Part shown: positions 46,900 through 51,288 of the stretch, one piece after another
Layout of the letters: every line of letters starts with the position of its first letter
How positions within the stretch are numbered: position 1 is the first letter of the stretch
NCBI GenBank assembly: GCA_016185125.1
Contig: JACPOC010000002.1
Span: forward strand, 1-64,000
Length of the DNA stretch: 64,000 bases
DNA from: Bacteroidota bacterium
GTDB lineage: Bacteria; Bacteroidota; Bacteroidia; B-17B0; Aurantibacillaceae
Direction: 5' to 3'
The notes under the pieces: model-generated
Database searches by the model: none
Seen by the model: the letters and a program-made list of their open reading frames with translations, nothing else
What the model was told of the DNA's origin: nothing
Made by a program: the position numbers and the translations under genes

Positions 46900-47409
46900 T
46901 TAATGAAGAGACCGATTTGGCCTGTTCATATATTTTAAGTGGATGGCGTACATGCCAATAAAAACCAAATCAATAATAATGGTGAATATCATCATTCCAT
47001 AAGATTTTTGAGTTTCGCCGTTCATGCTAAAATTTAATCCGATAAAATTGGTAGCAATTTCGGCGGCTGCGTAAATAAAAAAACCTGCTTTATTTAAATT
47101 CCACATCATAATAACTCCCACTAAGGAAATAATATTTGTAAACATGCACATTAAAGATATCCGGCCAATCTGATGAAGAAAATCGGCGGGGTTGTCAATT
47201 TCAATGGCGGGATTAGTTTCCATTACTCTATCCATAATAAGCGCGGTGGTTTCTTCGCTCATGGCCAAGCAAAAAGAGCCGATGAGGTAAATGATAATCA
47301 TAATGCCGCACCAGATAAAAGAAAGAATGCATAAGATTTTTAAAAACTGAGGCTTTAACTCTTCCTTGGCAAGTTCGTTTGCAAAAGCATTGTTGGTGTT
47401 GTTTTCCAT
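46900..47409 (-). CDS. Small four-helix membrane protein, unknown
   Basis: The 169-residue protein has an acidic N-terminus and about four hydrophobic helices (ILCILSFIWCGIMIIIYLIGSF, ISLMCMFTNIISLVGVIMM, AGFFIYAAAEIATNFIG, MIFTIIIDLVFIGMYAI). No family is clear to me. It lies seven bases after the DUF2752-type gene and likely shares its transcript, with the peptide transporter after it. Confidence 0.65.
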   Translation of the reverse strand: MENNTNNAFANELAKEELKPQFLKILCILSFIWCGIMIIIYLIGSFCLAMSEETTALIMDRVMETNPAIEIDNPADFLHQIGRISLMCMFTNIISLVGVIMMWNLNKAGFFIYAAAEIATNFIGLNFSMNGETQKSYGMMIFTIIIDLVFIGMYAIHLKYMNRPNRSLH

Positions 47410-47416
47410 AATTAAA

Positions 47417-47800
47417 TTAAAATAGTAAAGGTAAAAATGCTAATAAAAAAGTACAAATGCTAATATGCACATCTGTTTTAATAAGCAGTGAATTTATTTT
47501 TTTTGATACAAAAGTATAATGCGCAATTAACAGTGTTCTTAATACAAATTGAAGAATAAAAAACAAAAACACATGCCATGAAGCCGGATTAAATTTTTTT
47601 CCTTCATCAAATTGAAAATGAGAATAGTGTGAAAATGCGCGGGAGAATCCGCAAGTAGAACATTCTTTTCCGGTAAATTGCTTTATGGCACAATTGATAG
47701 GGTGCACCGCGGGATAAAAAAAATAGGAATAGCCTAACACTACTCCTATTAAAATTAAAAAAACCCAACTGATGATGACATAAGCGGGGGTTTTTGACAT
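47417..47800 (-). CDS. DUF2752-type membrane protein
   Basis: The 127-residue product has about three membrane segments and the motif ECSTCGFSRAFSHYSHFQF, the CPxCGxxR-like signature of the DUF2752 family. The cysteines and conserved loop face one side; the function of the family is unknown. It sits in a tight cluster with the Gly-rich membrane protein upstream and the four-helix protein downstream. Confidence 0.8.
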   Translation of the reverse strand: MSKTPAYVIISWVFLILIGVVLGYSYFFYPAVHPINCAIKQFTGKECSTCGFSRAFSHYSHFQFDEGKKFNPASWHVFLFFILQFVLRTLLIAHYTFVSKKINSLLIKTDVHISICTFLLAFLPLLF

Positions 47801-47806
47801 AAAAAT

Positions 47807-48217
47807 TTACTGGGCCTTAGTGGTATCTGTTATTTCTTTTAACTGTTGAAGGGCTTTGTTTAATGAGTCCATTCCCCCAGCTTTTTCAAATTCGTGAGCG
47901 GCATCAACCATTGCGCCGGCCGCAAAATAAACCAGATACAGCCAATAGCAGGCAATAACAATACCTACCACCGAGCAAATTAAACCGCCAATTGCCATTC
48001 CCTTAGGGGCATTGGCTGCACCGGCCTGCTTCATGGCAAGGGCCGATAAAATAACGCCCACAATACCGGGTACTATAGCCCACATGCCCACACATGGAAT
48101 AAATGAAAAGATAGCTGCTAAAATACCGAGTACTAATCCGGCAATACTCATTCCTTTTCCAGCATTTGGATTGGATGGCGTTGTAGTTGTTGTTGTAGTT
48201 GTTGTGTTTTCTTCCAT
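47807..48217 (-). CDS. DUF4190-like small membrane protein
   Basis: The 136-residue product begins with a low-complexity run of threonines (encoded by ACA/ACT repeats) and then GKGMSIAGLVLGILAAIFSFIPCVG and NAPKGMAIGGLICSVVGIVIACYWL. These two Gly-rich helices resemble DUF4190 membrane proteins, which often occur next to DUF2752 genes. A short amphipathic tail ends the protein. It is the first gene of the - strand cluster. Its role is unknown. Confidence 0.7.
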   Translation of the reverse strand: MEENTTTTTTTTTPSNPNAGKGMSIAGLVLGILAAIFSFIPCVGMWAIVPGIVGVILSALAMKQAGAANAPKGMAIGGLICSVVGIVIACYWLYLVYFAAGAMVDAAHEFEKAGGMDSLNKALQQLKEITDTTKAQ

Positions 48218-48560
48218 TTTTTATTTTATTGATTTGTATTTTTTATAAAATTATTTACTTGAAAACGCAGGATATGTATCGGTTAAAAAAGACATATAAG
48301 CATTAACGCGGGCGCCCCATCTTATAGTGCCCACCAAGCGATGATGTTTAGGGTTAAAATTTGGGGGTTAGTTTGTTGCATGTTGTGTTTAATATTTAAT
48401 TAATAATAGGTGAATTTACCCTTTTTTATAAAAATTGTTAATTTTATTACATAAAGTTTTTAACAACCGTATATTAATCCTTCTTCAAGATAGGAATGAG
48501 GCCCATTTACACCTATTGGCATTTTTTAATAGAAATTTAGCTGCATTTATAGGGTTTTTC

Positions 48561-48840
48561 ATTTTTATATCCATTGTCGCATTTTTATATCCATTGTCGC
48601 GTTTTTATATCCATTAATGCGTTTTTATATCCATTGTAACATTTTTATATCCATTGTAGCATTTTTATATCCATTAATGCATTTTTATATCCATTAAAGC
48701 GTTTTTATATCCATTGTAGCATTTTTATATCCATTAATGCGTTTTTATATCCATTAATGCATTTTTATATCCATTAATGCGTTTTTATATCCATTAAAGC
48801 GTTTTTATATCCATTGTCGCGTTTTTATATCCATTTTCGT
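48561..48840. repeat. Fourteen 20-bp tandem repeats (iteron-like array)
   Basis: From 48561 to 48840 a 20-base unit repeats fourteen times without a shift. The core TTTTTATATCCATT is identical in all fourteen. The six-base linker varies but falls into few types (GTCGC, AATGC, GTAGC, AAAGC, plus A or G), and the last unit ends TTCGT. A degenerate unit lies in phase at 48861 and weaker ones at ~48505-48560. The period is close to two DNA turns. On the - strand, stops block the frames I checked; on the + strand some frames stay open for part of the array. The 747-base region 48218-48964 has no other clear feature. Confidence 0.95.
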
Positions 48841-48964
48841 GTCCTTCTAAATATTTTTAGATTTTTATATCTGTTTTTTTTTCGCGCTTCTTTAAAAGCT
48901 GTTAAATTATTATTGTTTTTGTTTTACAAAATAAATATGTTATTTTTATAAAAAAAAATAATAT

Positions 48965-49567
48965 ATGAGCAACCGACGACTAAAAATTGCAGTAAAATTT
49001 AGCCACCTCAACATCCTTAACAAAATAAAAAGGGCCACAGAACTTGCCGATGCTATTCACGATCATAAAACGGAGTTTAAACATCCGGTTCCTTCGCCGG
49101 CTACAATTAATAAAGCGGTTGAAGAACTTGATAAACAGAATAAATTAGCCGCTAAAGGTGGAAAAAGCGAACGTGCCGACAGGCAAGCGGCGTCAAATAA
49201 ACTTGATATTTTAATAATGGAATTAGCCCACTATGTGGAAAAAGTAGCCGATGGAAACGAAGAAATTATAAATAAAAGTACTTTTGAAATTAAAAAACGC
49301 TCGGTTCGCACGCAATTTGATTTTGAAGTAATTGTGCCCGATGATAGAGGCGTGGTAGAATTAAAATGTAAAAGAAGCATGAAGTCGGTTTATATATGGC
49401 AGTTTCATGATGGCGAAACTCCTGTTTTTAAAGAAGGTGCACGCGGCATAACCAACAGCGCAGTTATAACTAATTTACAAAGCGGCGTTACGTATTGGTT
49501 TAGGGTATTTATTGTAAGTGGCCAAAACGATACTATTTTGGGCCCTAAAGCGGCCACGGTTAATTAA
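48965..49567 (+). CDS. Unknown protein with FN3-like C-terminal domain
   Basis: The 200-residue protein has a helical, Lys-rich N-terminal half (ATINKAVEELDKQNKLAAKGG, RADRQAASNKLDILIMELAHYVEKVADGN). Its C-terminal ~85 residues look like a single fibronectin type III sandwich (VYIWQFHDGETPVFKEGARG, VITNLQSGVTYWFRVFIVSG). There is no signal peptide. The gene begins 124 bases after the 20-bp repeat array and is the only gene the array could control on this strand. No function is recognised. Confidence 0.7.
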   Translation: MSNRRLKIAVKFSHLNILNKIKRATELADAIHDHKTEFKHPVPSPATINKAVEELDKQNKLAAKGGKSERADRQAASNKLDILIMELAHYVEKVADGNEEIINKSTFEIKKRSVRTQFDFEVIVPDDRGVVELKCKRSMKSVYIWQFHDGETPVFKEGARGITNSAVITNLQSGVTYWFRVFIVSGQNDTILGPKAATVN

Positions 49568-49599
49568 CCAAAATACACCGCAATAAAATCTATTTTAAA

Positions 49600-49850
49600 T
49601 AAATTAAATTTTAAAAAACAGAAATGTATTTAATTAAAAAACAGGGTACGTACCTGTAAAACACAGCATATTAAGCGTTGCTTAAAATGTTCTTCTGCCA
49701 TAACGAAACTTGGAAATTTTGAGAGCAGGGGAACAGTGTAAAGTGGCACGCCAAACGGCGTGGCCTTTGCCTGTTTCTTCAATCTCTCAAGGTTCTTCCA
49801 AGTACCTGTTATGGGTTGAGCGTTACAGCATTGGTTCACGCCTAATTTTT
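49600..49850. other. GC-richer non-coding block with small stem-loops
   Basis: This part of the 337-base gap 49568-49904 is richer in G and C than its surroundings. It contains GGTACGTACC (a palindrome), TTAAGC-GTT-GCTTAA and CACGCC-AAAC-GGCGTG stem-loops. A 69-codon - strand ORF (49630-49839, MNQCCNAQPITGTWKN...) crosses it, but has no recognisable family and may be spurious. The block could be a remnant of a mobile or repeated element. Confidence 0.35.
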
Positions 49851-49904
49851 TTAATGAAACATCTTTAATGAACCTTAAGGATAATTACATTAAAAAACTA
49901 AAAC

Positions 49905-50483
49905 ATGAAAAAAATCATTTTAATTATTTGTACAGGGGTACTGGTATTAACGGGGTGTAAGCCAGAAAACAAGGTTATAAAAACCACAGCCCATAAAGAA
50001 GCTGAACAAAGAGCCGCAAAAGTTACTCAGCCCGCCGGATCTTGTTATTGCCAGCAAGGTATACCCGCACCCTGTACTACTGCTTCAGTTAATGTAGATA
50101 AATTTATGGAAGGAAATTCTTTGGTGTTTAAAACAATAACTTGGAGCAACTGTTCAGCCCAACCTGCAAATGGCGACCCTAATTGTAACTCTATATTATC
50201 TCCGGCTCCAACCTCAAGTTTAAAGTTATGCTGGTACGATTGTAATACGATTACTGCTACAATAACTAATAAACCACCCTGTTTACCTTGTTATCCGAAT
50301 AATTTTTGCATTCAACTAACTCCGGTAGTTCAAGGCAATGTTTATACTTTGCAGGGATATTATGATGCAACCTCCGAATTATTAATTCAAATGACAATTT
50401 CGGCAGATCCTAATGTTACAGTAAAATGTATTTCGGGTACTGGTTCTAATGCAACAACGTATGTATGCTATGGAAACTATTAA
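49905..50483 (+). CDS. Cysteine-rich hypothetical lipoprotein
   Basis: The 192-residue product has a lipoprotein signal (IILIICTGVLVLTGC, lipobox LTGC, Cys18). The mature part is rich in cysteine, proline and threonine (SCYCQQGIPAPC, LCWYDCNTI, PPCLPCYPNNFC) and should be an extracytoplasmic, disulfide-stabilised or Cys-binding domain. No family is recognised. The gene overlaps the following outer-membrane barrel gene by 14 bases, so the two are coupled. Confidence 0.75.
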   Translation: MKKIILIICTGVLVLTGCKPENKVIKTTAHKEAEQRAAKVTQPAGSCYCQQGIPAPCTTASVNVDKFMEGNSLVFKTITWSNCSAQPANGDPNCNSILSPAPTSSLKLCWYDCNTITATITNKPPCLPCYPNNFCIQLTPVVQGNVYTLQGYYDATSELLIQMTISADPNVTVKCISGTGSNATTYVCYGNY

Positions 50484-51165
50484 AAAAACATTTTTAATTT
50501 TCTTGTTAGCAATCTCCTCTTTTTCCTTTGGTCAAAAATTTGGGTTTTGCGCGGGTACAGCTTACAATACTATGGTAAAAAAGCCTAACCAATGGTTTCC
50601 GGTAAGCTATAGTTATTATAACAGGTTTTCGCCTTATGTAGGCTTTGTTTTCCGCGACTCCTTATGTAGGTTTGTTTTATTAAAAGCAAGCGTGTACTAT
50701 GTGCAACGAGGCATCCGCTATAACTATAAATTAGAATACCCGGGCGTTTACATGATTCACAGCGACCAAATTTTTACGCCTCATTATCTTTCTTTTCCTG
50801 TAAAGCTTAATTTTAATTATAAAAGTTTTTATATAGGCTTTGGCCTTGAAGGAAGTATTTTAATTACGGGTAGAACAAAAGTTACTACTAAAGAGTTTTC
50901 AGGTTTAGCGGGTAATTATTATGAAACTTCTTTTGATAACTGGGATAAAAAAGTATTTTATGCCGTTGATGCCGGCTATAATTTTAACTTAGGATATAAA
51001 ATTAAACAATTTGAGATTGATTTTAATATATTTCATGGCTTGCAACCTCCGCCCAAATTTTTTGTTTTTGCTTCGCCCAACTTTGAATTTCAATATCTTT
51101 ATCAGCAAACCTTTATGTTAGGATTAAATTATTACCCTCAATTTAAAAAAAGAAATAAAAGTTGA
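50470..51165 (+). CDS. Outer-membrane beta-barrel protein
   Basis: About 231 residues with a signal peptide (TFLIFLLAISSFSFGQ) and repeated amphipathic strands alternating aromatic and polar residues (FSPYVGFVFRD, SVYYVQRGIRYNYKLE, SFYIGFGLEGSIL), as in PorT-like small barrels. It probably sits in the outer membrane. ATG 50470 is preferred; ATG 50449 would add seven residues without a signal function. It is coupled to the lipoprotein gene by overlap, so the pair may work together. Confidence 0.7.
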   Translation: METIKKTFLIFLLAISSFSFGQKFGFCAGTAYNTMVKKPNQWFPVSYSYYNRFSPYVGFVFRDSLCRFVLLKASVYYVQRGIRYNYKLEYPGVYMIHSDQIFTPHYLSFPVKLNFNYKSFYIGFGLEGSILITGRTKVTTKEFSGLAGNYYETSFDNWDKKVFYAVDAGYNFNLGYKIKQFEIDFNIFHGLQPPPKFFVFASPNFEFQYLYQQTFMLGLNYYPQFKKRNKS

Positions 51166-51189
51166 GTATTTAAAAAAACATTAGTATTA

Positions 51190-51288
51190 GTGAAGCTAAC
51201 TTTATTTATAATATTAGTGTTTTTTTACTCTTTAACGTTTGCTCAACAAAACAAAATTGGTTTTGTTACCGGAATAGGATATCGCTAA
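51190..51288 (+). pseudogene. Truncated remnant of a second barrel gene
   Basis: A GTG at 51190 starts a 32-codon frame: a signal peptide (LTLFIILVFFYSLTFAQ) followed by QNKIGFVTGIGYR and a stop at 51286-51288. The mature start resembles the QKFGFCAGTAY of the intact barrel just upstream, so this looks like the 5' end of a duplicated paralogue cut off by the convergent M61 peptidase gene. It overlaps that gene's stop by four bases. Confidence 0.6.

Follow-up and report, generated by a model that had tools for sequence, protein, structure and literature searches.

What is a row of fourteen evenly spaced direct repeats doing on a Bacteroidota chromosome, and does it belong to the gene that it adjoins? 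We addressed this question in the window, the whole stretch of 64,000 nucleotides that was analysed (Table 1), and in relatives of that gene from other genomes. Our main finding, which goes beyond a first-pass annotation of this DNA, is the array's link to the FN3-family gene. Together they make up a two-part module that is found in many copies and species, and this association is well supported.

The array and the gene beside it

The 14-base core, TTTTTATATCCATT, has 14 exact matches at 48562, 48582 ... 48822, all on the + strand and spaced by exactly 20 bp; the chance expectation is 0 (100 dinucleotide shuffles). These matches confirm the fourteen in-phase 20-bp repeats that had first been described. 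The 6-base linker holds all of the variation among the 14 units: it reads GTCGCA, GTCGCG, AATGCG, GTAACA, GTAGCA, AATGCA and AAAGCG in units 1-7 and GTAGCA, AATGCG, AATGCA, AATGCG, AAAGCG, GTCGCG and TTCGTG in units 8-14. The annotation had noted a few linker types that recur, and indeed there are 8 types, several of which reappear in non-adjacent units. TRF places the array at 48560-48835, with a period of 20 (13.8 copies), and gives a better score to an alternative period of 60 (4.6 copies), which is compatible with array growth in three-unit blocks. Between the array and the decayed unit, positions 48841-48860 have 8/14 core matches and are not a further unit; the AT-rich left flank does equally well (8/14 at 48521 and 6/14 at 48541).

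Table 1. Features of the window around the array, with strand where assigned.
Feature	Coordinates	Strand	Remarks
Upstream region of the divergent DUF4190 operon	48372..48470	.	Conserved in relatives; left border of the segment missing from five relatives
Segment of ~2.8 kb, from the DUF4190 operon to the M61 peptidase gene	48471..51284	.	Borders approximate; contains the array, the FN3-family gene, and ORFs 49905-50483 and 50449-51165
Array of 14 units of 20 bp	48561..48840	.	Invariant 14-base core plus variable 6-base linker
Single decayed unit	48861..48880	.	Same 20-bp phase; 12/14 core matches
Remaining gap between array and start codon	48881..48964	+	Presumed to hold the FN3-family gene's promoter and 5' leader
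FN3-family gene	48965..49567	+	200 aa; predicted N-terminal helical bundle and C-terminal FN3 domain

The exact core is unique to this locus, as 14 of its 14 matches in the 3.34-Mb genome fall within the array. Finding the core as a common simple repeat at many loci had been named as a possible refutation, and the core turns out not to be common. BLAST found no second copy of the array in its genome (next best E 0.067), and the 34-base two-unit pattern had 0 matches in viral contigs. The array has 2, 6, and 2 stops in the three + frames and 8, 7, and 6 in the three - frames, so it has no open frame that could encode a heptad repeat, in keeping with the initial view that a coding role is unlikely. 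Elsewhere in the window, a 20-bp repeat, AAAAGTAAAAATGCTAATAA, is present in two copies at 47427-47465, near the end of a DUF2752 gene.

For the protein encoded next door, AlphaFold predicts helices at residues 17-33, 45-62, 67-95, and 99-104 and a seven-stranded C-terminal domain, with the FN3 strands running from about residue 120 to 198 (mean pLDDT 89.8, pTM 0.55). The C-terminal FN3 fold of the family is supported by a PDB profile search and by Foldseek, which bears out the early description of the gene at 48965 as FN3-like. The fn3 model of Pfam matches 8 of 24 members at E ≤ 0.01 (best 4.4e-08), and the window protein misses the Pfam cut-off. Indeed, no Pfam or NCBIfam model scores above its cut-off for the window protein, and it has no significant PHROG. 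For the N-terminal domain, the best Foldseek hit has E 1.2, and VIA-align 2 matches it to helical bundles such as FAT domains (Z 9.0, rmsd 3.4, 97 aligned), which according to the tool may reflect merely a common arrangement. As modelled, the N-terminal domain resembles generic helical bundles alone and appears to have no clear known relative.

The computed pI is 9.45 for the window protein and the family median is 9.27, so these proteins are mostly basic. None of the 24 members matched a PADLOC model for anti-phage defence. No Pfam Rep initiator model matched any of six window proteins, and none from NCBIfam or PHROGs matched the FN3-family protein. The family is multi-copy and has no curated model in the libraries searched. 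By eye, many of 29 loci have terminator-like hairpins after the stop codon, which suggests that the FN3-family gene is its own transcription unit. (Also by eye, window positions 49690-49830, after the gene, hold an imperfect inverted repeat, CATAAC...TTGGAA / TTCCAAG...GTTATG; automated repeat finding does not report it, and the genome contains this region just once.)

A gene family that mostly lies beside arrays

A search of 60 genomes with the single window protein gave a match in 13, its own genome included. Among 395 genomes drawn from the class, 55 have a family match; 395 drawn from the phylum, a set that overlaps the first, yielded 8, two of them for the FN3 part only. There are seven family matches in the window's genome (including one truncated copy and one fragment) and 7 to 25, fragments counted, in each of ten carrier genomes that were picked for many hits. 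A genome titled Methylococcales, which is a gammaproteobacterial order, has 13 copies. The family has no relative in viral contigs, and a search of plasmids and phages with one query protein (L051) gave no match. A partial match (L247, E 6e-8) was seen in a genome counted as family-free.

We fetched 185 unique family genes, 176 of them with an intact start. Leaving out nine genes scored as truncated and genes with less than 500 bp on the side in question, an array with a period of about 21 bp lies on at least one side of 140 of the 162 family genes with both flanks (132/149, plus 8/13 from the Methylococcales genome); the other 22 have no array by these tests. Arrays near 21 bp lie within 1 kb upstream of 116 of 167 genes by TRF (127 of 167 by the lag score) and downstream of 19 of 171 (13 of 171 by the lag score). 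For comparison, we took 690 ORFs from background DNA of five carrier genomes: 27 have an array on one side or the other, and 11 have one upstream. Of 39 control genes with long upstream non-ORF DNA, 4 have an upstream array. The gene-array pair is thus recurrent, mainly in Bacteroidota and in at least one gammaproteobacterium. Because the link holds at 140 of 162 loci with units that are mostly unrelated, the invariant core is a local property of the window array. We found no description of the pair in the available text of the open-licence literature searched (PMC9426551 and PMC12255303 included).

The distance from the array to the start codon varies from tens to about 700 bp (median 271 bp for 98 arrays). 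Several of the downstream arrays come from a subfamily that has them about 30-360 bp past the stop codon (loci L205, L207, L208, L211, L214, and L216 of genome G222, L219 of G192, and L191 of G134). Furthermore, three of four 5'-truncated copies inside a contig have an array at the break (at 7 bp in L034, 27 bp in L185, and 1 bp in L186; L184 has none). The arrays at these breaks and the downstream subfamily imply that the array is more than part of a promoter.

TTG-n-TAnnTTTG is the Bacteroidota-type promoter motif. As a common promoter it was rejected, since it occurs in 5 of 129 upstream regions versus 11 of 129 downstream; the gap at 48881..48964 of the window has no match. We also noticed a leader of ~130 bp, about -230 to -90 from the start codon, that is conserved at nine loci of the window's genus (L051, L052, L053, L055, L056, L057, L059, L026, and L040). 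It lies between the array and the gene and contains a CCG...CGG hairpin with, by eye, seemingly compensating variation; RNAalifold gives a weak consensus (energy -1.32, 11 pairs, 3 with changes on both sides). We did not see this leader by eye in the window copy.

Judged by eye, the 12 largest neighbour clusters (within about 1.5 kb) that were printed include no apparent transposase or recombinase and no partner NTPase gene. At one locus of a Sediminibacterium sp. MAG (L028 48-1384 and L054 4696-8307, which carry the same gene), a long array with a 76-bp period, CRISPR-like by eye, lies on the opposite side of the family gene from an array with a 42-bp period. At L218, an ORF 563 bp past the family gene begins MAKILGLDLGTNSIGWAV, which looks by eye like the start of a Cas9.

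What is kept from locus to locus is the period of about 21 bp, or two helical turns, while the unit sequence is mostly locus-specific. Averaged over 133 upstream regions, the self-match has its peaks at 21, 42, 63, 84, 105, and 126 bp. If a period counts as in phase when it deviates by no more than 0.15 turn from a multiple of 10.5 bp, then 112 of the 116 upstream arrays (period of at least 12 bp) are in phase, including 21 of the 24 whose periods are not multiples of 3. The helical phasing that the first-pass annotation had likened to iterons therefore extends to the family, within which the window's period of 20 is a minority value (21 is usual).

Among protein pairs at least 60% identical over 90 or more aligned residues, truncated genes included, the arrays match in just 4 of 24. 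Some paralogues that are 73-83% identical have unrelated arrays (L107/L162, L206/L212, L074/L094, and L039/L065). For L074 and L094, which are from one genome, the 530 bp separating array and start codon are 85% identical, which implies that an array can be replaced while the neighbouring gene stays. That some paralogues about 80% identical have unrelated arrays argues against simple recognition by the FN3-family protein alone. No domain tracks array identity as a specificity domain might: the N-terminal part is less identical than the C-terminal part in 16 of 30 pairs with different arrays. Orthologues from three congeneric species (L125, L127, and L033) do have a recognisable common array, which between L125 and L127 is 97% identical over 174 bp. 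Also, the array of truncated copy L186 is related to that of L102 from the same genome (80% over 176 bp).

Some arrays lie away from family genes. We found 15 such orphans in four genomes. Of the 15, 2 have a unit in common (E<1e-4) with an array beside a family gene of their own genome; for gene-linked arrays of the three remaining genomes the count is 0. Orphan arrays may be remnants, or they may act as targets in trans. In the window's own genome, arrays near 21 bp lie outside long ORFs at L225 772-1181, L229 4998-5405, L237 4386-4522, and L239 18234-18535, with no family gene found alongside. Non-coding arrays near 21 bp number 16 in 862 kb from five carriers (counting the window's; genome G187 has 0) versus 0 in 400 kb from five family-free congeners. 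This difference is suggestive, but a second sample weakened the contrast, with 0 in 200 kb from five further carriers versus 2 in 158 kb from five non-carriers, of which three had been sampled before; one of those 2 arrays reads by eye like a tRNA duplication.

What the arrays may do

Unit anatomy bears on how an array might be read. The sets used for anatomy, reading frames, bending, and folding exclude arrays shorter than 150-160 bp or of low information. Of 77 arrays, 18 show clustering of their conserved columns (p<0.05). A looser entry criterion gives 24 of 79, and here the window array is among the clustered ones (p 0.031). Dyad symmetry exceeds that of column permutations (p<0.05) in 34 of 77 arrays, with about 4 expected; the window array is not among the 22 given as dyad-symmetric at p<0.02. 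Flanking 21-mers gave 4/230 at p<0.05, in a control that uses single 21-mers with tied scores and is therefore conservative and not exactly matched to array profiles. Mismatches across the dyad are G-T 873 times versus A-C 953 times, and paired dyad positions do not covary between units (4994 complementary observed versus 5072 expected; per-array z is above 1.64 in 7 arrays and below -1.64 in 18). The similar mismatch counts and the lack of covariation favour DNA sites over RNA stems, and prove neither.

We tentatively favour the reading that the array is a set of DNA sites in helical phase that a symmetric protein complex occupies, and the FN3-family protein might belong to that complex. The sites would form a row on one face of the helix, often with dyad symmetry of their own, and a symmetric, probably dimeric protein would fill them co-operatively to build a filament or cluster, as iteron-like and centromere-like arrays do. 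In the window, 14 such sites would stand 129 bp upstream of the FN3-family gene, counted to the start codon from where TRF ends the array. The FN3-family protein is the first candidate for a component, being mostly basic and encoded next door; its helical domain could serve assembly and its FN3 domain contacts, with sequence specificity perhaps supplied by another partner. A possible binding role is what survives of the protein-binding array proposed at the outset; the invariant core is no widely shared site for a regulator.

A more specific reading, which we regard as doubtful, is that each FN3-family protein or its complex recognises its own array and related orphans in the same genome. A genome would then carry many pairs free of cross-talk, and arrays would be replaced once a gene had duplicated. 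If true, this would be a new class of partnership between a chromosomal protein and an array, present in Bacteroidota and at least one gammaproteobacterium.

Somewhat less probable is that the arrays are cis-regulatory, that is, sites for a regulator that switches or tunes the FN3-family gene, perhaps through the number of units. Their mostly upstream positions and the gene's apparent status as its own transcription unit fit this idea, but one subfamily carries the array beyond the stop codon, most of the truncated copies have kept theirs, the distances to the gene vary widely, and no common promoter or site sequence was found. The members with a downstream array also make it unlikely that the related suggestion, a phase-variable promoter spacer, holds in general.

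We think it improbable that the array acts single-stranded, either as transcribed RNA hairpins or as hairpins of ssDNA that serve a recombinase or a replication step. Over 95 arrays, the mean fold z is -2.21 (+ strand) and -2.73 (- strand) versus -0.51 and -0.76 for column-permuted versions (Wilcoxon 3e-8), and the dyad symmetry would also suit hairpins. But the strand preference across these arrays is marginal (p 0.05), G-T mismatches are not in excess and nothing covaries, and the helical period of 20-22 bp is left without an explanation. Rfam has no family at its gathering threshold in 20 loci; in window positions 47001-51000, it has one sub-threshold snoRNA match at 47276-47355, away from the array. 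The window array itself folds poorly (z -1.72 on the + strand and -0.16 on the - strand), so the structural RNA that had been suggested for it is unsupported.

Similarly improbable is that the array is a by-product of mobility, with some unknown machinery spreading the module and the array being made at each insertion, or by two-turn slippage, without a present function. The distance from the DUF4190 operon to the M61 peptidase gene is about 0.01-0.7 kb in 5 of 5 relatives (L010, L011, L012, L015, and L018), so the simplest reading of the ~2.8 kb missing there is a gain in the window's lineage. The truncated copy L034, which is in the window's genome, is 87% identical at the DNA level over 357 bp that run up to the stop codon, and its array differs from the window array. 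High copy numbers (in genomes chosen for many hits), the unrelated arrays of L074 and L094, and the arrays beside three truncated copies also fit mobility. But no cluster resembling a transposase or recombinase is apparent among the 12 largest neighbours printed, viruses, plasmids, and phages gave no matches, and orthologous arrays persist between congeners (L125/L127). Nor would idle arrays be expected to show dyad symmetry and clustered conservation.

It is very unlikely that the period alone matters, with two-turn repeats summing their bends into curved or wrapped DNA. This would account for a free sequence with a fixed period, and a wedge model predicts a strong bend for the window array (166 degrees versus 88 for column-permuted versions, p 0.016). 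But curvature was rejected as a general rule: across 98 arrays, the bend is not above that of column-permuted versions (7 with p<0.05 and 6 with p>0.95), and it is greater than that of full shuffles in just 58.

Least likely of all is a neutral minisatellite or decayed coding repeat that lies beside the gene by chance. Higher-order periods (42, 63, and 84) and a decayed edge unit are ordinary tandem-repeat dynamics, 21 bp is 7 codons, and in 51 of 80 arrays one frame or more stays open, some translating as heptad-like repeats. But array positions are not independent of the gene family (140/162 versus 27/690), 29 of the 80 (the window's included) have stops in every one of the six frames, the variation is not biased by codon position (p<0.05 in 3 of 62), and periods that are not multiples of 3 are mostly in helical phase.

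Overall, the earlier interpretation is partly supported. The module tells selection on geometry apart from selection on sequence, and with up to 25 family matches per genome, it offers many natural replicates for asking what reads the arrays. It may also account for part of the intergenic tandem repeats that are now ascribed to slippage.

Comparison with known systems

In the iteron arrays of plasmid origins, direct repeats about 18-22 bp long are helically phased and lie next to a small gene; the module likewise has helically phased direct repeats, about 20 bp long, beside a small gene. However, a neighbouring Rep-like gene, which defines iteron origins, is absent beside the window array, and the module is present in many copies per chromosome with a unit that is mostly different at each locus. 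The centromere arrays of ParR/parC systems, which are bound by partition proteins, are rows of short direct repeats by the gene for a small, mostly basic protein. The module has the same layout, with a protein that is small and mostly basic, but no recurrent ATPase or filament partner was seen by eye beside the FN3-family gene, and the helical domain's predicted fold has no clear known relative. CRISPR arrays combine a conserved core with a variable part beside a gene, as the window array does, but a unit of 20-22 bp whose linker has 6 bases leaves too little room for a repeat plus spacer, and no Cas model matched the six window proteins scanned.

As described in the available text on the RptR repressor, a small all-helical protein is encoded next to direct repeats with palindromic cores; the repeats are 9 bp long, in three copies, conserved in sequence across species, and overlap the -10 box (PMC12255303). 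On that description, the FN3 module is similar in placing a helical protein domain beside direct repeats that are often dyad-symmetric, whereas its arrays have many units, a locus-specific sequence, and a position often far from the gene. Finally, the window array shows the block growth and decayed edge of a VNTR or minisatellite, but the arrays of the module go with a single gene family and keep a two-turn period.
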